A stretch of DNA of 39,968 bases from Nitrospinaceae bacterium (GTDB lineage: Bacteria > Nitrospinota > Nitrospinia > Nitrospinales > Nitrospinaceae): contig JAJDBJ010000077.1 of the NCBI GenBank assembly GCA_029261395.1, positions 1-39,968 on the forward strand. Direction: 5' to 3'. Of the stretch, positions 1,333 to 39,968 are shown piece after piece. The position numbers and the translations under genes are program-made. The notes below the pieces were generated by a model. It worked only from the letters and a program-made list of their open reading frames with translations, ran no database searches and was not told the origin of the DNA. How positions within the stretch are numbered: position 1 is the stretch's first letter; every line of letters begins with the position of its first letter.

Positions 1333-1941
1333 ATGATTGCGCGTCTCAAAGGCCAGCTGATTGAGAAGTCCCCGATCTCCCTGGTGGTCGATGTACAGGG
1401 CGTGGGCTACGAAGTGTTCATTCCGCTGACCGTTTATTACGAATTGCCGGAGTGCGGTGCGGCGGTCTCGCTTTATATTCATACGCGGATGCGGGAGGAG
1501 TCGCTCAAGCTGTTCGGCTTCATCAAGGAAGCCGACAAGCAGATGTTCGAACTGCTGACGCGCATCAGCAAGGTCGGCCCGAAAATCGCGCTGGCGTTTC
1601 TGTCCGGCATGACGGCGCAGGAGTTGACGCAGGCCGTGTTCAGCGATGACATTGCCACCCTCAGCGCTATTCCGGGTGTCGGACGCAAAACCGCCGAGCG
1701 GCTGGCGCTGGAGCTGAAAGACAAGTTATCGGAACTGAATCTGCAACCGGAAGCTGTCACTGCGACAGCGAGCGCCGACAGTATTCCGGGCGGCGGCCTC
1801 AAGGACGATGCAGTATCGGCGCTGGTCAACCTGGGATACAAAAAAGCGCAGGCCGAGCAGGCGCTGAAGAAAGTCTGGCGGGACGAAGCCAAGCCCTCGC
1901 TCGAAGAATTGATCCGCGACAGTTTGAACTGTCTGTCTTGA
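1333..1941 (+). CDS. ruvA: Holliday junction branch migration protein RuvA
   Basis: DNA-binding subunit of the RuvAB branch-migration motor; it tetramerises on Holliday junctions and loads RuvB. The 202-residue protein begins MIARLKGQL, the typical OB-fold N terminus. It has two helix-hairpin-helix motifs (KVGPKIALAFLS near residue 78 and IPGVGRKTAERLALELK near 113). The C-terminal UBA-like domain that contacts RuvB begins with KDDAVSALVNLGY. It lies 4 nt after ruvC and 10 nt before ruvB, which indicates one operon. Confidence 0.97.
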   Translation: MIARLKGQLIEKSPISLVVDVQGVGYEVFIPLTVYYELPECGAAVSLYIHTRMREESLKLFGFIKEADKQMFELLTRISKVGPKIALAFLSGMTAQELTQAVFSDDIATLSAIPGVGRKTAERLALELKDKLSELNLQPEAVTATASADSIPGGGLKDDAVSALVNLGYKKAQAEQALKKVWRDEAKPSLEELIRDSLNCLS

Positions 1942-1951
1942 AGGATAACGC

Positions 1952-2995
1952 ATGACGATAGAACGCGACATTCCACCCGACCGCGACATGGACTCTGCCG
2001 TCGCTCCACAGGAAACGGTGTACGAGACGAAACTGCGTCCGAATACCTTCGACGATTACACCGGCCAGGAGCAGATCAAACAGAATCTCCATATCTCCAT
2101 TTCCGCCGCGAAGATGCGCAAGGAACCGCTCGATCATGTGTTGTTCTACGGACCGCCCGGCCTCGGCAAAACCACGCTGGCGCACATCATCGCATCGGAG
2201 ATGGGATCGAACCTGAAAACCACGTCCGGCCCGGTGATCGAAAAGTCGGGTGACCTGGCGGCTCTGCTGACCAATCTACAGCCGGACGATATTTTGTTCA
2301 TCGACGAGATTCACCGCCTGCCCAAACAGATCGAGGAAATTCTGTACCCGGCGATGGAAGATTACCAGTTGGATATCATGATCGGGCAGGGACCGAGTGC
2401 GCGTTCGATCAAACTCGAACTGCCGCCGTTCACGCTGGTGGGCGCGACCACACGGGCGGGATCGTTGACCTCTCCCCTGCGCGACCGTTTCGGCGTGGTG
2501 CATCGTCTCGACTTTTACTCGGCGGAGGATTTAAGCACGATCCTGCACCGCTCAGCGAAAATCCTCGATGTCGAAATGACCGAAACGGGATGCCAGGAAA
2601 TCTCCCGACGTTCGCGCGGCACCCCGCGCATCGCCAACCGTTTACTGCGGCGCGTGCGCGACTACGCCCAGGTGAAGGGCGACGGCAGCATCAATCCGGA
2701 GATCGCCGACAAGGCACTGGCGTTGATGGAAGTGGATCACGCCGGGCTGGACAAGATGGATCACAAACTACTGCTGACGCTAATCGACCAGTTCAAGGGT
2801 GGCCCGGTGGGGGTGGAAAGCCTCGCCGCCTCCATCCACGAAGAACGCGAAACCATCGAAGACGTCTACGAACCGTATCTTCTGCAAATGGGATTCCTCC
2901 ACCGCACCCCACGCGGACGCGTCGCCACAGCTCTGGCGTACGAACATTTCGGCAAAACCCTACCCAGCCAAAATTCTCAAAACTCCTTGTTCTAA
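1952..2995 (+). CDS. ruvB: Holliday junction ATPase RuvB
   Basis: AAA+ motor that drives branch migration with RuvA. The length is 347 residues. Walker [10 protein letters not shown] lies at residues 67-75; Walker B is LFIDEIHRL; the sensor and arginine-finger region [15 protein letters not shown] and the C-terminal winged-helix domain with TPRGRVAT are present. RBS AAGGATAA precedes ATG 1952. It closes the yebC-ruvCAB cluster; an interspersed repeat begins within 10 nt of its stop. Confidence 0.97.
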
Positions 2996-3000
2996 CTCTT

Positions 3001-3060
3001 CCCCAGAGGGGGAATTTGCTGACGGGTAACGGCGGACGACGACCGTTGAGCGCAACTCAG
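3001..3060 (-). repeat. Interspersed repeat R1, copy a
   Basis: Read on the minus strand this copy contains TTGCGCTCAACGGTCGTC followed by GCCGTTACCCGTCAGC. The same pattern recurs at 8775-8820, 8839-8889 and, with a different middle, 20114-20166. It fills the space between the convergent ruvB and PHP genes. No coding potential was seen. Confidence 0.7.
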
Positions 3061-3064
3061 GGTT

Positions 3065-3967
3065 TTAGATTTGCTCCGGCGCTTCGCCGGTCCAAACTTT
3101 TTGGAAGCGTGGTAGGAACGAGTCGTCCATTTTGGTGGTGCCCAGCATGTCGGGCGTCTGGTAGGTGGTGAAGCCGTGGAAATCGCGGCTACCGGTGGGG
3201 ATCATGTCGTACTCATCGGCGAGGTCGAGGAAGTATTGCACCTTGCCGGTTTTCTCGTGGTGAGGGTAGATGCATTCCAGGCCGAGTAATCCCTTGGCCT
3301 TTAAATCCTCCACCATTTCCGGTACAGCTTCCTGTTTTCTGCCCTTGTCCGGGTTGTAAAGAGAGTAGGTCCGCTCGCCGGGATGCGCGAGGACCGGCAC
3401 ACCGTTACTGGCGCGCACCATACTCAAGGCTTCTTCAATTTTCAGGTTATCTTTTTCGACATTGTATTTGACCAAATATTTTTCGAATGCGGCATTGGTA
3501 CTTTTGACGATTCCGAGACGAACCATCTCGCGCGCCAGATGCGGCCGCGCCAGCACCCCTTCCGACCCTTTCTTCACGTTGTCGAACGTGATTGTTCCGC
3601 GAAAGCGATCGGGAATCACCTCATTGATCTTGGCAATCAGTTGGTGCATGCGATCTTCGCGGGCTTCTTTCATCGTCTCGACACGGTCCCACAAATCCGG
3701 AAGTATGGCATCGAGAGATTTAAAATAGGACAACAGATGCAGATTGAAATCGCGGTACTGGACAGTGATCTCGATGCCGCAAAATGCGAAGATTCCGGAG
3801 TCTTTTGCGGCATCCATGAACTCCGGCAGACCCGAAAAGGTATCGTGATCGGTCAACGCCATGATGCCCACGCCATTTTTTTTACCGATATCAATCAGCG
3901 CGGCCGGCGCAAACTCGCCATCGGAAAAAACGGAGTGCATGTGAATTTCAGATTTGCGTGTGGTCAT
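3065..3967 (-). CDS. PHP-domain metallophosphoesterase (TrpH/YciV/RNase AM-like)
   Basis: Cytosolic phosphoesterase of the polymerase-and-histidinol-phosphatase superfamily. Relatives include E. coli YciV (RNase AM), which trims short 5' RNA ends and hydrolyses 3',5'-nucleotide bisphosphates. The 300-residue protein shows the metal-binding pattern: HMHSVFSDG near residues 9-17, ALTDHDTFSG near 37-46, GIEIT near 64, LARPHLAREM near 139, LAHPGE near 194, and DFHG near 262. All expected His/Asp positions appear intact. ATG 3967 is the first Met in frame. It is transcribed alone on the minus strand, convergent with ruvB. The fold is clear; the substrate is inferred only from family membership. 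Confidence 0.88.
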   Translation of the reverse strand: MTTRKSEIHMHSVFSDGEFAPAALIDIGKKNGVGIMALTDHDTFSGLPEFMDAAKDSGIFAFCGIEITVQYRDFNLHLLSYFKSLDAILPDLWDRVETMKEAREDRMHQLIAKINEVIPDRFRGTITFDNVKKGSEGVLARPHLAREMVRLGIVKSTNAAFEKYLVKYNVEKDNLKIEEALSMVRASNGVPVLAHPGERTYSLYNPDKGRKQEAVPEMVEDLKAKGLLGLECIYPHHEKTGKVQYFLDLADEYDMIPTGSRDFHGFTTYQTPDMLGTTKMDDSFLPRFQKVWTGEAPEQI

Positions 3968-4164
3968 GGGTCCTCACAAAAGAGATGAGGCGCGAAGAAG
4001 ATCATTGCCTCGTGTATCCATATTAGCTTCTTTTACGCTCAAAAGAAACGAATCACCTTGAAAAACAGCCGTTTTCCCGGATGTTCTTTCATTTCCCAAC
4101 GCCCGTGCCATGATGTAAAATTGTAGAACCATTGATTTACGCACTCCACCATGAGGAAGAACTC

Positions 4165-5505
4165 TTGCGCCCACACAACCGAATCCTAAAAATTCCCAAG
4201 GCCGTCATGGTCCTTCTGGTGACGCTTTTGATGAGCTGTACCGCTCTTCCCGATCAGCCCGAACCTCAGTCCGGTGAGGTGTTCATCATCTATTCGGGAA
4301 ACGCGCTGGGCGAGCTCAAACCCTGCGGCTGTGACAAGGAGGAAGACCAGGGCGGCATTGAGCGCCGCATGAGTTATCTGAAACATGTCATCCCACAGGA
4401 ACCCAACACACTGCTTGTCGATCTGGGAGACAACTTCAAGGGATCGACCCGGCAAGGCAAACTCAAGTCGCAGACCATGATGCAGGCCCTGGGGCAGATG
4501 AACTATGACGCCATCACTCTGGGCGACAAGGATCTGCTGTACGGCAACGGGTTTCTCGGCGGCATAGCCAACATCCCGTGGGTGGCCGCCAACCTGCAAC
4601 TGGAAGGACTCGCCCTGCCGCCTTCGCGCACCAAGGTGCTGGCCAATGGCTTGAAAGTGTTCATCACCGCCGTGGCCGATCCGGATCTTTTTTACGCGTC
4701 TCCCGATTCCAACGTCAAGCTGAGCGATCCCGTGGTGGCATTACAGCAACAAATCGACACCGCCCGCAAGAATGATTCGCCGGACCTGATCGTGGTCCTC
4801 ACCCATATGCCGCGCGACAAGGGAATAAAATTTCTGGAAGTGCCCGGCGTTGATATCGTCATCAACGGTCATATTGAAACGGATAACGATTTGATCGACA
4901 TGACCCCGGTAGAACGGAACGGAAAAATATTCGTCCAGCCCGGACCCTTGGGACAGAAAATGGGGGAGTTGCGAGTCCGTATCAATCCGGATGGTGACAA
5001 ATCATTTCAGCAGAAAATGGTGCGCCTCGGGTCAAAGGCGCCGATGGACCCGGAAATGACGCAATTATACGACGCCTACAACGCGGAAGTGGAGGAGCTG
5101 TTCATGGCCACCCTGGCCGCCAAGCGCAAGCAAAAACAGAATCGAGTCTACGCAACGGACCAGGTCTGCCTGACCTGCCACGCCAGGGAACATGGCCTCT
5201 GGTCGAAGACGGGTCACAGCCGGGCTTACGCGGCGCTTGAGGAAGCAAACAAATCGTTCGACCCGGAGTGTCTGGCCTGCCATACCACCGGCTTTGAGAA
5301 ACCGGGCGGCTTCATCAGTGAAATCGACACGCCGAAACTCAAAAATGTACAATGCGAAATGTGCCACGGCGCGCGCTTGGAGCATACCCAAAACCCGCAA
5401 GGGGGATTCGCGAAGGAAGCCAGGGCGGCCTGCGGCAAATGTCATGTCAAAAAACACAGCCCAAAATTCAATTTTAGCCAGTATTGGCCGCGTATCAGGC
5501 ACTGA
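4165..5505 (+). CDS. Lipoprotein: metallophosphatase-like domain fused to tetraheme cytochrome c
   Basis: Probable periplasm-facing lipoprotein. I place the start at TTG 4165 because GAGGAAG lies six nucleotides upstream, and because this start gives a basic N terminus, a short hydrophobic stretch and the lipobox LLMSC. The frame is open upstream to TTG 4132, and ATG 4207 is an alternative. The N-terminal part (about 40-300) resembles 5'-nucleotidase/calcineurin-like phosphoesterases (LLVDLGDNF, ITLGDKDLLYG, VLTHMPRDKG, VINGHIE). The usual first D-x-H motif is replaced by SGNALGELKPCGC and the usual GNHE/D by GDKD, so metal binding or hydrolysis may be altered. The C-terminal part has four CxxCH haem sites at residues 335, 369, 397 and 423 (CLTCH, CLACH, CEMCH, CGKCH), like cytochrome c554-type proteins. 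Downstream are a DsbA-like protein and an S41 protease. Electron transfer is likely; any phosphatase activity is uncertain. Confidence 0.85.
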   Translation: MRPHNRILKIPKAVMVLLVTLLMSCTALPDQPEPQSGEVFIIYSGNALGELKPCGCDKEEDQGGIERRMSYLKHVIPQEPNTLLVDLGDNFKGSTRQGKLKSQTMMQALGQMNYDAITLGDKDLLYGNGFLGGIANIPWVAANLQLEGLALPPSRTKVLANGLKVFITAVADPDLFYASPDSNVKLSDPVVALQQQIDTARKNDSPDLIVVLTHMPRDKGIKFLEVPGVDIVINGHIETDNDLIDMTPVERNGKIFVQPGPLGQKMGELRVRINPDGDKSFQQKMVRLGSKAPMDPEMTQLYDAYNAEVEELFMATLAAKRKQKQNRVYATDQVCLTCHAREHGLWSKTGHSRAYAALEEANKSFDPECLACHTTGFEKPGGFISEIDTPKLKNVQCEMCHGARLEHTQNPQGGFAKEARAACGKCHVKKHSPKFNFSQYWPRIRH

Positions 5506-35826: not shown

Positions 35827-37239
35827 ATGACTGAAGAAGTACGCGTCCGTTTCGCCCCCAGCCCCACAGGATTCCTCCACATCGGCGGGGTACGCACCGC
35901 CCTGTTCAATTGGCTGTTCGCCCGCCACTTTAATGGCAAGTTCATTCTGCGGATCGAGGACACCGACCACGAACGCTCCACCGAGGACTCCATTCATGAA
36001 ATCATCGAGTCGATGCGCTGGCTGGGGCTCGACTGGGACGAAGGCCCCTTCCGCCAGACGGAGAGGCAAAGCCTCTACACGCAAAAAGTTCAGGAATTGC
36101 TGGACGGTCAAAAAGCGTATCTCTGTTACTGCACTGCGGAAGAACTCGAACACCGCCGCAAAATGGCGCAGGACCAGGGCGCCAAACCGAAGTACGACGG
36201 CAAATGCCGCAGTCGCACCGAATTCCCCGAAGGCGCGCCGCACGTCATCCGCTTCAAATGCCCGCAGGAGGGCAACGTGATCGTCAACGATATCCTGCGC
36301 GGCAACGTCACGTTTGATCTGGCCGAGCAGGACGACTTCATCATACTGCGCACCGACGGCTCGCCGACCTATAACTTCGTGGTGGTGGTGGACGACGCCG
36401 ATATGCGCATCAGCCACGTCATCCGGGGCGACGACCACCTGTCCAATACGCCGCGCCAGGCGCTGCTAAACGACGCCCTCGGCTTCACGCGCCCGCAGTT
36501 CGCGCACATCAGCATGATCCTCGGCGAAGACAAATCGCGCCTGTCGAAACGCCACGGCGCAACGGCCACCCTCGCCTACCGCGACATGGGCTACCTCCCC
36601 AACGCATTGGTCAATTTCCTGGCGCGCCTCGGCTGGTCGCACGGCGACCAGGAACTGTTCACCATCGACGAATTGATCAAACATTTTACACTTCAACACG
36701 TCACCACTTCCGCCGCCGTGTTCAATCCCGAGAAATTGTTGTGGGTCAACGAGCAGTGGATTCAGTCGGACGAGAAAATTTCTTCTCTGGAATTGGCAAA
36801 ACATCTGGAGCCGATTTTGGTTCAGGAAAAAGTTTTACCTGAAAACCACAGCAAAGCTTTAGAAGATATCGCCAAAGTCATCCCCTCATTACGACAAAGA
36901 GCAAAGACCCTGATCGAAATGGCCCACGGCGCCGAGTTTTATCTCAAAGATGAAGTGACGTTTGACGAGAAGGCGAAAGCCAAATTTCTAAAGCCGGAAG
37001 TGAAGCCGCTGTTTGAAACACTGGTGGCAGGATTGGAAACGATGGTGGAACCGTTGAATCACGACGTCGTCGAACTCCTGTTCAAAAAGACCGTCGAGGA
37101 CGCCGGTCTGAAACTCGGCAAACTCGCCCAGCCCGTCCGCGTCGCCCTCACCGGCAAAACCGCGTCTCCCGGTATTTTTGACGTCGTGCTATTGCTGGGG
37201 AAAAAACGAACCATTGAGCGGCTCCAAAAGGCTTTTTAA
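35827..37239 (+). CDS. gltX: Glutamyl-tRNA synthetase
   Basis: Class I aminoacyl-tRNA synthetase that charges tRNA-Glu in the cytosol. 470 residues. The HIGH motif is FLHIGG in PSPTGFLHIGGVRTALF, and the KMSKS-like loop is DKSRLSKRHG. The C-terminal anticodon-binding domain ends with GKTASPGIFDVVLLLGKKRT and a final helix. RBS AAGGAG lies 6 nt before the ATG. A 71-nt copy of part of its 3' end (37093-37163) sits downstream at 38411-38481. In the ancestral order it probably faced glnS directly. Confidence 0.97.
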   Translation: MTEEVRVRFAPSPTGFLHIGGVRTALFNWLFARHFNGKFILRIEDTDHERSTEDSIHEIIESMRWLGLDWDEGPFRQTERQSLYTQKVQELLDGQKAYLCYCTAEELEHRRKMAQDQGAKPKYDGKCRSRTEFPEGAPHVIRFKCPQEGNVIVNDILRGNVTFDLAEQDDFIILRTDGSPTYNFVVVVDDADMRISHVIRGDDHLSNTPRQALLNDALGFTRPQFAHISMILGEDKSRLSKRHGATATLAYRDMGYLPNALVNFLARLGWSHGDQELFTIDELIKHFTLQHVTTSAAVFNPEKLLWVNEQWIQSDEKISSLELAKHLEPILVQEKVLPENHSKALEDIAKVIPSLRQRAKTLIEMAHGAEFYLKDEVTFDEKAKAKFLKPEVKPLFETLVAGLETMVEPLNHDVVELLFKKTVEDAGLKLGKLAQPVRVALTGKTASPGIFDVVLLLGKKRTIERLQKAF

Positions 37240-37306: not shown

Positions 37307-37639
37307 ATGAATACTCAACTCAGCTATCTTTACCGGGACGCATGGAACTACAAAAGGTTTCATTCTATTATTTTGCCGGGCATCATCACCCTAGAGCAAA
37401 TCGAACCTTTTTTAAGAGAGCAGACTTTCTTTATCCCCTCTGAAGTCGGCTTACCGGACTTACAAGAAGACGTTTTTAAATCCTACGATCATATCTGGCA
37501 TGAAATAGAAGCCATCGAATTAATCGACGAGCAACCCACCGCAACCATCAACGCCTCAGTTCTATTGGCTAATTTTAAAAAGGCTCATAGTTTGAACTGG
37601 AATGAGAGAGAAGTCTTTGCGCGAAAGGGTTTAGTGTGA
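37307..37639 (+). CDS. Cassette A, first gene: small partner of HNH nuclease, unknown
   Basis: 110 residues from ATG 37307, with GGAGG nine nucleotides upstream. The frame is open into gltX, so the RBS decides the start. It begins MNTQLSYLYRDAWNYKRFHS and has IIPGI-type hydrophobic strands, a FFIPSEVGLPDLQ segment and an acidic middle. No membrane segment or enzyme motif is seen. Its stop overlaps the GTG of the HNH gene by 4 nt (GTGA), so the two are translationally coupled and very likely act together, perhaps as an accessory or regulatory subunit. Low GC compared with gltX marks it as acquired. I do not recognise the family. Confidence 0.75.
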   Translation: MNTQLSYLYRDAWNYKRFHSIILPGIITLEQIEPFLREQTFFIPSEVGLPDLQEDVFKSYDHIWHEIEAIELIDEQPTATINASVLLANFKKAHSLNWNEREVFARKGLV

Positions 37640-38373
37640 GCGACACCGAACGCAAACTATGGACAAGAGACGAGCTACTCCTCGCTATTAATCTGTATTG
37701 CAAAATACCCTTTGGAAGAATTCATTATAAAAATCCTGAAATTATTGAGTTAGCAAATAAACTTGGGCGAACGCCGGGTTCCATCAGTTATAAGTTGGCA
37801 AATTTCTCTAGCCTAGATCCAACTCTTGATCGTAAAGGCGCAGCGAATGTTAGCAAGCTAGACAAAGAAGTTTGGGCTGAGTTCTATGACAATTGGGAAG
37901 AGAAGCTTTCGGAAAGCGAATCGAAGTTGGCGGAATTGAAAGGCGCACTGGATATCCCAGAAGAATTACCGGAACTTGAAATAACAGAGGGAAAAACCAG
38001 AGAAGCTATTGTTAAAACGCGGGTGAATCAGGGCTTGTTTCGGAAAATCATCCTGTCGTCCTACGATGAGAAATGCTGTATTACAGGAATCGATAATGCC
38101 GAGCTATTAATCGCCAGCCACATTGTCCCTTGGTCGCGAGATACCAAAAATCGCTTAAACCCCATGAACGGAGTTTGCCTAAACGCACTCCATGACCGCG
38201 CTTTCGATAAGGGACTAATTACAATCAGCGAAGACTATCGAGTGGTGGTTTCCAAAAAAGTAAAACATGAATTACTTTTAAAATATAATACCGCACAAAT
38301 TTCCCTGCCAAGCCGTTTCCGCCCCGACCAAAATTTTCTTAAATTCCATAGAAACGAAATATTTAGAAATTGA
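37636..38373 (+). CDS. Cassette A, second gene: HNH endonuclease
   Basis: 245 residues from GTG 37636. The N-terminal part (about 8-65: TRDELLLAINLYCKIPFGRI, ELANKLGRTPGSISYKL) is a helical, probably DNA-binding domain often found in front of restriction-type HNH domains. A linker rich in Glu/Leu follows. The C-terminal HNH_2-like nuclease domain (about 130-205) has CCITGID, H162 in ASHIVPWS, N179 in MNGVCLN and H186 in ALHDRAFDKGLI, the metal and catalytic positions. It is AT-rich, coupled to the preceding gene, and ends 7 nt before a remnant of the glnS stop. Likely a restriction or defence nuclease; no methyltransferase lies nearby. Confidence 0.88.
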   Translation: MSDTERKLWTRDELLLAINLYCKIPFGRIHYKNPEIIELANKLGRTPGSISYKLANFSSLDPTLDRKGAANVSKLDKEVWAEFYDNWEEKLSESESKLAELKGALDIPEELPELEITEGKTREAIVKTRVNQGLFRKIILSSYDEKCCITGIDNAELLIASHIVPWSRDTKNRLNPMNGVCLNALHDRAFDKGLITISEDYRVVVSKKVKHELLLKYNTAQISLPSRFRPDQNFLKFHRNEIFRN

Positions 38374-38380
38374 CACCCCT

Positions 38381-38414
38381 TTACCCCTTCTTTTGGACTT
38401 TGGCCCAGGTGTCG
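38381..38414 (-). pseudogene. Remnant of the glnS 3' end (34 nt)
   Basis: Identical to 39862-39895, the last codons and TAA stop of glnS on the minus strand. Identity stops abruptly at GTCG, which is shared with the start of the adjoining gltX remnant. With 39862-39895 it forms direct repeats bounding a 1,481-bp unit that contains cassette B. Confidence 0.95.
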
Positions 38415-38488
38415 AGGACGCCGGATTGAAACTCGGCAAACTCGCCCAGCCCGTCCGCGTCGCCCTCACCGGCAAAACCGCAACCTAG
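38411..38488 (+). pseudogene. Remnant of the gltX 3' end (71 nt) with new stop
   Basis: Positions 38411-38481 match gltX 37093-37163 at 69 of 71 positions. The two differences (GGT to GGA, CTG to TTG) are adjacent-codon synonymous changes. After GKTA the frame reads one Thr and TAG (38486-38488), so a protein ending here would lack the last 24 residues of GltX. The TAG overlaps the GTG (38488) of the next gene by one base. Confidence 0.95.
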
Positions 38489-39822
38489 TGGTGTATCATA
38501 AAAAAATGACTATTGATCAATCCCCCACATTAACCTCAGAGCAATTACGTGAAGCTTTGGTCTTTGCCAAACGACTAGTTAACTCTATCCATCCCAAATG
38601 GTTAGAAAGACAAAATAGGAAGCGGCCCATCGATCCTGTTCTCTTGGAACCACAAAGAGCGCTTTATACAAGAAATCAAAATATTGCAACTATAGCTGAC
38701 GGATATCAGGACACCTCTATTCACCCCGTAGCAGAATGCATATTATCAGCAGAAAAAGCCCTTAAGGATACTGACGAAGGAAAGCATGTAATATTTTCTC
38801 CTTCCTTTTATAGGGTTCTTTCTCTAGCGGATGTCGAAAAAAATAAAACTCATATTAAAGGAATTGAAACAAGATTTCCAAAGCTTCTAACTCCAAAGGA
38901 ATGGAAAAGCACCCTCCACGAATTAATTATCGCAATAAGCTATCTCCCTGAAGTTAAGCCAGAATTATTGCCCGACAATACGGACCAAAAAGGCGTAGCA
39001 GATATTTTACTGCCGACCATTCCAGAAACCTTTGTCGAATGCAAAACTCGCCTGCAATATGAAGATAAAATTATAAAGTTAAATGAAAAATGGAGAAAAA
39101 ACGCCTTACGTGAAATTTGGAAAGCATTGATGAAATACCAGGGAAGCTTTCTTATCAAAATCAATCTCCTCAAGCCACAAGTCGAAAAGACCTTAAAAAA
39201 AGATATCCCAAATTTCATTGAAGACATGATTAACAACGGGATACGCAACAAAACCTTTAATGATGATTATTCAATTTCCATTGAACCTTTCTTGGAAGAA
39301 GAAAAAAACCTGCCACAACCTATGCCAACAACAGATCTTAAAATTTGGGAATGGGCCTTTGATTTCAAAGAATGGGATGAATGGCATCATTGGCTTCCAA
39401 CAGGCGACATTACAACCTCCAAAGAAAACCCTGGGTTAGCAGTAAAAGTTAAGAAATTAATTTTAATTTGTTTCAGGGCGGATTACCTCAAAGACAATAA
39501 AGCCAATCTGATAAACTCACTAAAGCATGCCTCAAAACACCAATTAAAAAAAGGGAACCCCGGTATAATTTTTGTGCATTTGAACGCTAGTCTATATGGA
39601 TTAGGTCAATTGAGAAAAATTGAATCAATACGTGATGATCTAAATGGTCCTATACGGCAATTCTTAAAAAATCATTCAAGGGTTTGGAAGGTAATAATTG
39701 ACGTCACTTATGAAGGAGACTATTTTCCGTTTGAAGCAAAAGCCTATAGGATCGTAGCTACTAATAGTAAATGGGCAACACCTGATCATTATGTAGAACC
39801 CAAGCCCATATTAATTTTGTAG
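38488..39822 (+). CDS. Cassette B: putative PD-(D/E)XK-type nuclease, unknown family
   Basis: 444 residues from GTG 38488, which overlaps the stop of the gltX remnant (TAGTG); ATG 38506, six codons on, is the alternative, and neither has a clear RBS. Counting from ATG 38506, E139 (LHELIIAIS), D166 (KGVADILLP) and E178-C-K180 (ETFVECKTR) have the order and spacing of a PD-(D/E)XK nuclease core, with D and ExK on successive predicted strands. No methyltransferase, helicase or membrane segment is present. The gene is strongly AT-rich with lysine and asparagine abundant, unlike gltX. It lies in the gltX-glnS hotspot beside an HNH cassette, which makes a restriction or anti-phage role the best guess. 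Family not recognised. Confidence 0.72.
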   Translation: MVYHKKMTIDQSPTLTSEQLREALVFAKRLVNSIHPKWLERQNRKRPIDPVLLEPQRALYTRNQNIATIADGYQDTSIHPVAECILSAEKALKDTDEGKHVIFSPSFYRVLSLADVEKNKTHIKGIETRFPKLLTPKEWKSTLHELIIAISYLPEVKPELLPDNTDQKGVADILLPTIPETFVECKTRLQYEDKIIKLNEKWRKNALREIWKALMKYQGSFLIKINLLKPQVEKTLKKDIPNFIEDMINNGIRNKTFNDDYSISIEPFLEEEKNLPQPMPTTDLKIWEWAFDFKEWDEWHHWLPTGDITTSKENPGLAVKVKKLILICFRADYLKDNKANLINSLKHASKHQLKKGNPGIIFVHLNASLYGLGQLRKIESIRDDLNGPIRQFLKNHSRVWKVIIDVTYEGDYFPFEAKAYRIVATNSKWATPDHYVEPKPILIL

Positions 39823-39861: not shown

Positions 39862-39968
39862 TTACCCCTTCTTTTGGACTTTGGCCCAGGTGTCGCGGAG
39901 GGGGGTGGTGCGGTTGAAGATGGGGGTGCCGGGTTTGCTGTCCACAGCGTCGGCGATGAAGTAGCCCA
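39862..39968 (-). CDS. glnS: Glutaminyl-tRNA synthetase, C-terminal fragment
   Basis: The minus strand reads GYFIADAVDSKPGTPIFNRT and then TPLRDTWAKVQKKG with a TAA stop, the typical C terminus of GlnRS (F-N-R-T-x-x-L-R-D-T-W-A-K). Only 34 codons are inside the window; the gene continues to the right. It faces gltX, with the two cassettes between them. The last 34 nt are duplicated at 38381-38414. Confidence 0.9.
   Translation of the reverse strand, partial: GYFIADAVDSKPGTPIFNRTTPLRDTWAKVQKKG

Follow-up and report, generated by a model that had tools for sequence, protein, structure and literature searches.

Between the convergent genes gltX and glnS of a Nitrospinaceae bacterium lies a solitary gene of foreign composition, and the question that it raises is what kind of protein it encodes and what such a protein could be doing there. 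The gene, called here cassette B, is found near the right edge of the analysed window, a stretch of 39,968 nucleotides that forms contig C77 of a 2.9-Mb genome. As originally predicted, the open reading frame may begin at a GTG at 38488 or at an ATG at 38506, with its stop at 39822 (438 codons counted from the ATG). The ATG is preferred and the GTG start is unsupported, because the closest relative, encoded by another Nitrospinaceae genome (G010), begins with an aligned MTID... at the equivalent ATG. The gene is consequently placed at 38506..39822 on the forward strand, with a predicted 438-residue PD-(D/E)XK-type protein as its product. Its low G+C content is equally borne out, with 37% in 38501-39500 versus about 50-58% in housekeeping genes. 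The comparisons described below and the model of a homologue make it rather probable that this product is a stand-alone, metal-dependent PD-(D/E)XK nuclease, most likely serving as a single-gene defence effector.

The locus itself has the features of an insertion hotspot. Its left anchor is gltX (35827..37239, forward strand) and its right anchor the 3' end of glnS (39862..39968, reverse strand), inside which the contig ends. In the window, as in the six family-mates whose contigs permit the comparison, the two genes are adjacent and convergent, separated by a variable interval of 0.5-5.1 kb. In the sister species G001 this interval (L054 1548-6694) is occupied by genes of the restriction-modification type, identified by reading their translations as coding for a C5 methyltransferase, a Vsr-like nuclease, a GHKL ATPase and a receiver-type protein. 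A two-ORF cassette (175 and 247 aa) occupies the interval of G005 (L053, reverse strand, 1616-3203 in gltX orientation).

In the window, cassette B is the second of two cassettes stacked between the anchors. The main gene of the first, cassette A (37636..38373, forward strand), encodes an HNH endonuclease that matches Pfam HNH_2 and the PADLOC model HNH PDLC04132 (2e-93), its score against the NCBIfam phosphorothioated-DNA restriction endonuclease being 62.8 bits, below the cut-off of 180. A small ORF upstream of it (37307..37639, forward strand, 110 aa) has no confident family. Homologues of cassette A occur in 10 of the 77 genomes of the phylum, the window genome included. At the junction of the two cassettes there is a displaced copy of the glnS 3' end (38381..38414, 34 nt, identical to 39862-39895), fused over GTCG to a displaced copy of the gltX 3' region (38411..38481, 71 nt, 97% to 37093-37163). 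The arrangement would be most simply explained if an allele carrying A had recombined with an allele carrying B, through ordinary homology at one end and through an illegitimate joint at the other. Such a junction suggests a way of stacking defence cassettes without an integrase.

The original prediction proposed a possible new PD-(D/E)XK family and stated that the protein outside the nuclease core matched nothing recognisable. Taken alone, the window protein indeed gives no significant match in Pfam, NCBIfam, PADLOC, PHROGs or the PDB sequences, and direct searches with it of plasmids, phages, viral contigs, the PDB and Pfam found nothing. Its closest relative is the G010 protein (41% identity), the only homologue among all 77 genomes of the phylum. 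The G010 copy sits downstream of a tRNA gene and runs into an apparent IS30-family transposase at both contig ends (L004 11868-12001, L005 11880-12001), the gene having probably been broken and inactivated by this IS30-type element. When the G010 relative was used as query, a tblastn search of plasmids returned two weak matches (E 0.01 and 0.2), one of which served to reach 65 plasmid records and a single P2-like phage; prophage contigs contributed 22 further loci. In the opposite direction, a profile of the proteobacterial and prophage members finds the G010 protein (hmmsearch E 1.7e-8, Z = 1e6), and the profile-profile comparison that had been proposed as a check joins the Nitrospinota pair to the family with an hhalign probability of 96.8 (E 2.9e-10, residues 75-396). 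The window protein by itself fails the filters of the profile search, and it is through this comparison, via its G010 relative and not by direct scan, that it enters the family, in which the pair forms a long, separate branch. Statistically this link holds up, and the window protein appears to be a strongly diverged representative of a broad, unnamed protein family.

Part of this family is already present in PHROGs v4 as phrog_37220 ('unknown function'), which is matched by 14 of the 16 scanned members of alignment A8 and by most prophage members (in L039 over residues 34-480 of 487). By these members phrog_37220 is the same family, with no function attached to it; a direct scan of the window protein alone against it gave no match. 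No model for the family was found in Pfam, NCBIfam or PADLOC among the window protein and its homologues, and no PADLOC model matches any member; nor was any mention found in the literature of six member accessions or of phrog_37220. The statement that the rest of the protein matches nothing therefore holds for Pfam, NCBIfam and PADLOC but not for PHROGs. Likewise, the proposal of a new PD-(D/E)XK family stands as regards the motif and the homologue fold, but not as regards an orphan protein, the window sequence being a divergent branch of a wide family that is itself new within the known PD-(D/E)XK superfamily.

The members of this family, 438-487 aa long, are hosted by P2-like prophages, by enterobacterial, Aeromonas and rhizobial plasmids, many of them conjugative, and by E. 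coli genomes. Close copies of each of the two sampled E. coli types occur in 42 of 5,426 complete genomes, the two sets possibly overlapping, and of the complete E. coli genomes about 1.5% carry the family. In the three family pairs where dS could be estimated, dN/dS is 0.10-0.14, a sign of purifying selection and therefore of proteins that are maintained. Three rhizobial members carry the RefSeq label 'transposase' (L015 4947-6287, L062 5935-7281, L065 5986-7353), an annotation that looks wrong.

The catalytic motif was followed through an alignment of 23 non-redundant members (<90% identical, with identities down to about 15%). The residues E139, D166, E178, C179 and K180, numbered from the ATG at 38506, read as predicted, and only five columns are both filled and identical in every row: E139 (38920..38922), D166 (39001..39003), E178 (39037-39039), K180 (39043-39045) and, in the C-terminal domain, Q346 (39541..39543), all on the forward strand. 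The conservation of the four motif residues in 23/23 sequences, which the original prediction had named as a check, goes beyond chance. R35 and R376 are identical in all 22 rows that cover them. The E178-C179-K180 triplet (39037..39045) constitutes the (D/E)xK motif, its central residue being Cys in 22 rows and Ala in one, the prophage homologue L043 (EAK), which rules out a strict requirement for the Cys. D166 corresponds to the 'PD' aspartate, preceded by Ala in the window protein ('AD') and by Pro in most relatives. The motif thus comprises a conserved acidic residue of helix A, a conserved Asp at the start of strand 2 and a conserved (D/E)xK on strand 3, E139, D166, E178 and K180 having the spacing typical of PD-(D/E)XK enzymes.

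The structure prediction that had been suggested as a further check points in the same direction. An AlphaFold2 model of the window protein from a two-sequence alignment reached a pLDDT of 42 and was not used. The prophage homologue L039 (about 15% identity to the window protein), modelled from a 16-row alignment headed by its own sequence, gave a pLDDT of 82.7 and a pTM of 0.85. Its core follows the order helix 151-166, strands 170-173, 185-189 and 192-200, helix 206-226 and strand 233-239, which is the canonical alpha-beta-beta-beta-alpha-beta arrangement of PD-(D/E)XK enzymes. E157, the equivalent of window E139, lies on helix 151-166; D184, the equivalent of D166, just precedes strand 185-189; and E197 and K199, equivalent to E178 and K180, are on strand 192-200. 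Mapped from this model, the predicted nuclease core of the window protein would span residues ~117-222 (38854..39171, forward strand). Homology to L039 argues for a nuclease fold in the window protein, and the topology of the model suggests that E139, D166, E178 and K180 cluster within it.

In Foldseek searches, the best high-probability local matches of the L039 model are PD-(D/E)XK enzymes: the resolvase Hje (1ob9, probability 0.96, 2.3 A over 48 columns) and the homing enzyme I-Ssp6803I (2ost, probability 0.85, 3.0 A), followed by Hjc, HindIII and, in BFVD, viral Holliday resolvases and VRR-NUC proteins. No significant full-length structural match was obtained with this model, the top full-length ranks (Lnt, acetyl-CoA carboxylase and a mimivirus protein) having an rmsd >20 A and a probability <=0.13. 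Several members show sub-threshold Pfam matches to Mrr_cat, Hjc and AHJR-like, which point to this superfamily as well. Outside the core, similarity is confined to other members of the family. The possibility that the C-terminal half is a dead duplicate of the nuclease domain was examined with hhalign and found unsupported (probability 3.5). Weak matches to PtuA (E 0.022), a tail spike (0.32) and an acyl-CoA-binding protein (0.15), as well as the Abi_C match of a C-terminal fragment (E 0.02), were taken as chance.

Since the best local folds are those of the Hjc/Hje resolvases, the family could be imagined as a phage or plasmid DNA-processing enzyme of the Holliday-junction resolvase type, with no part in defence. 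The likeness, however, is a local superposition of the core limited to some 50 residues, with no relation in the remainder of the protein or in genomic context, and the Hjc Pfam model is reached by 3/16 members at a best E of 0.013, below the cut-off. In addition, the protein is much larger than resolvases, its distribution is sporadic and accessory, and its gene is found next to defence genes and not within modules for replication or recombination, all of which renders a processing role very improbable.

Two groups of defence nucleases come closer. With the Mrr-type enzymes of type IV restriction (Mrr_cat, PF04471) the family shares the motif spacing E...D...ExK and weak matches of several members (E 0.01-0.06), but these remain below the Pfam gathering score (best E 0.01) and the N- and C-terminal regions are different. 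Shedu (SduA, DUF4263) resembles the proposed system in being a single-gene defence that combines a PD-(D/E)XK nuclease with sensor-like regions, and mutation of the catalytic Lys of this nuclease in V. cholerae SduA abolishes defence (PMC12137116). In the window family, by contrast, the core is placed mid-protein and not C-terminally, and neither the window protein nor its homologues match DUF4263/SduA in Pfam or PADLOC. The favoured view is accordingly that the working principle would be closest to that of Shedu or of type IV restriction, with the family belonging to neither group by domain tests.

The surroundings of the homologues are consistent with a role in defence. The genes are lone ORFs that stand beside defence genes or occupy cargo positions of prophages. 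In E. coli P2-like prophages, the gene is flanked by those for tail-fibre assembly and tail sheath, in the slot taken by fun(Z) in P2, and in another group of prophages it adjoins the integrase at the prophage end. The plasmid neighbours recognised by PADLOC, which were picked by eye from the fetched records without a matched control set or background rate, include GajA-GajB in Aeromonas and a weaker such pair in Agrobacterium, DndC in Rhizobium, SspA/SspB and IetS in Agrobacterium, AbiJ in Moellerella and the TIR partner of a short Argonaute in Roseibium.

This variety of positions also bears on the reading of the protein as a homing-type endonuclease, or a mobile-element protein, that spreads its own cassette. 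The lone gene, the local match to I-Ssp6803I, the cassette borders within duplicated gltX/glnS ends and the 'transposase' annotation of the three rhizobial members could all be taken in this sense. Yet the insertion sites differ wholly among homologues (tail-fibre assembly/tail sheath slot, integrase side, plasmids, tRNA neighbourhood, gltX-glnS), the terminal repeats typical of an element are missing and the junction in the window is explained by recombination between alleles, which leaves this reading with little to recommend it. Somewhat less improbable, though still unlikely, is an orphan type II restriction endonuclease with its methyltransferase encoded elsewhere, as might be suggested by the PD-(D/E)XK core, its local similarity to HindIII and the methyltransferases found near some homologues (Kosakonia, Klebsiella). 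Against it, no methyltransferase gene is present in the window cassette, and hence none beside the nuclease as a cognate partner, nor in most of the homologous loci looked at, and the gene travels alone.

Because the cassette lacks a methyltransferase, a type IV-like or Shedu-like action is expected, and not that of one half of a type II restriction-modification system. In the proposed mechanism, E139, D166, E178 and K180 of the catalytic core would bind the metal for the cleavage of phosphodiester bonds, with DNA as the probable substrate. Sensing or recognition of the target, and control of the nuclease, would fall to the helical N-terminal region and to the alpha/beta domain at the C-terminus, which between them contain Q346, R35 and R376. 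What is recognised could be foreign DNA that is modified, structured or marked in some other way, or else an infection signal. The gene would move alone on prophages and plasmids, and in the gltX-glnS hotspot it would have come to be stacked behind another nuclease cassette.

The main rival to this single-gene nuclease defence is abortive action on host nucleic acid, that is, an effector with a PD-(D/E)XK fold that, on being triggered, would cleave the host's own DNA, or an RNA such as tRNA, and so kill or arrest the infected cell. A solitary gene with neither antitoxin nor methyltransferase, separate sensor-like N- and C-terminal regions and the cargo position on prophages and plasmids would all suit such an effector, which is nonetheless the less likely possibility, given that the local matches of the core are mainly DNA enzymes. 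The family as a whole suggests single-gene defence against phages or plasmids. Chances seem evenly balanced that it constitutes a widespread single-gene immune system, common to P2-like prophages, conjugative plasmids and the chromosomes of bacteria ranging from Enterobacteria to Nitrospinota, in which a built-in sensor is coupled to a PD-(D/E)XK nuclease and the target is recognised via the two terminal domains, which hold the invariant Q346 and the near-invariant R35 and R376. Testing one member would extend the defence catalogue by a single-gene system and would let defence annotation recognise the family in many genomes.

Some homologues are followed by further genes. In E. coli P2-like prophages a DUF3800 gene comes after the nuclease (L060 10666-11712), and in the prophage contig L026 two ORFs with no assigned function (2261-4626) take this place; both may possibly represent additional cargo.
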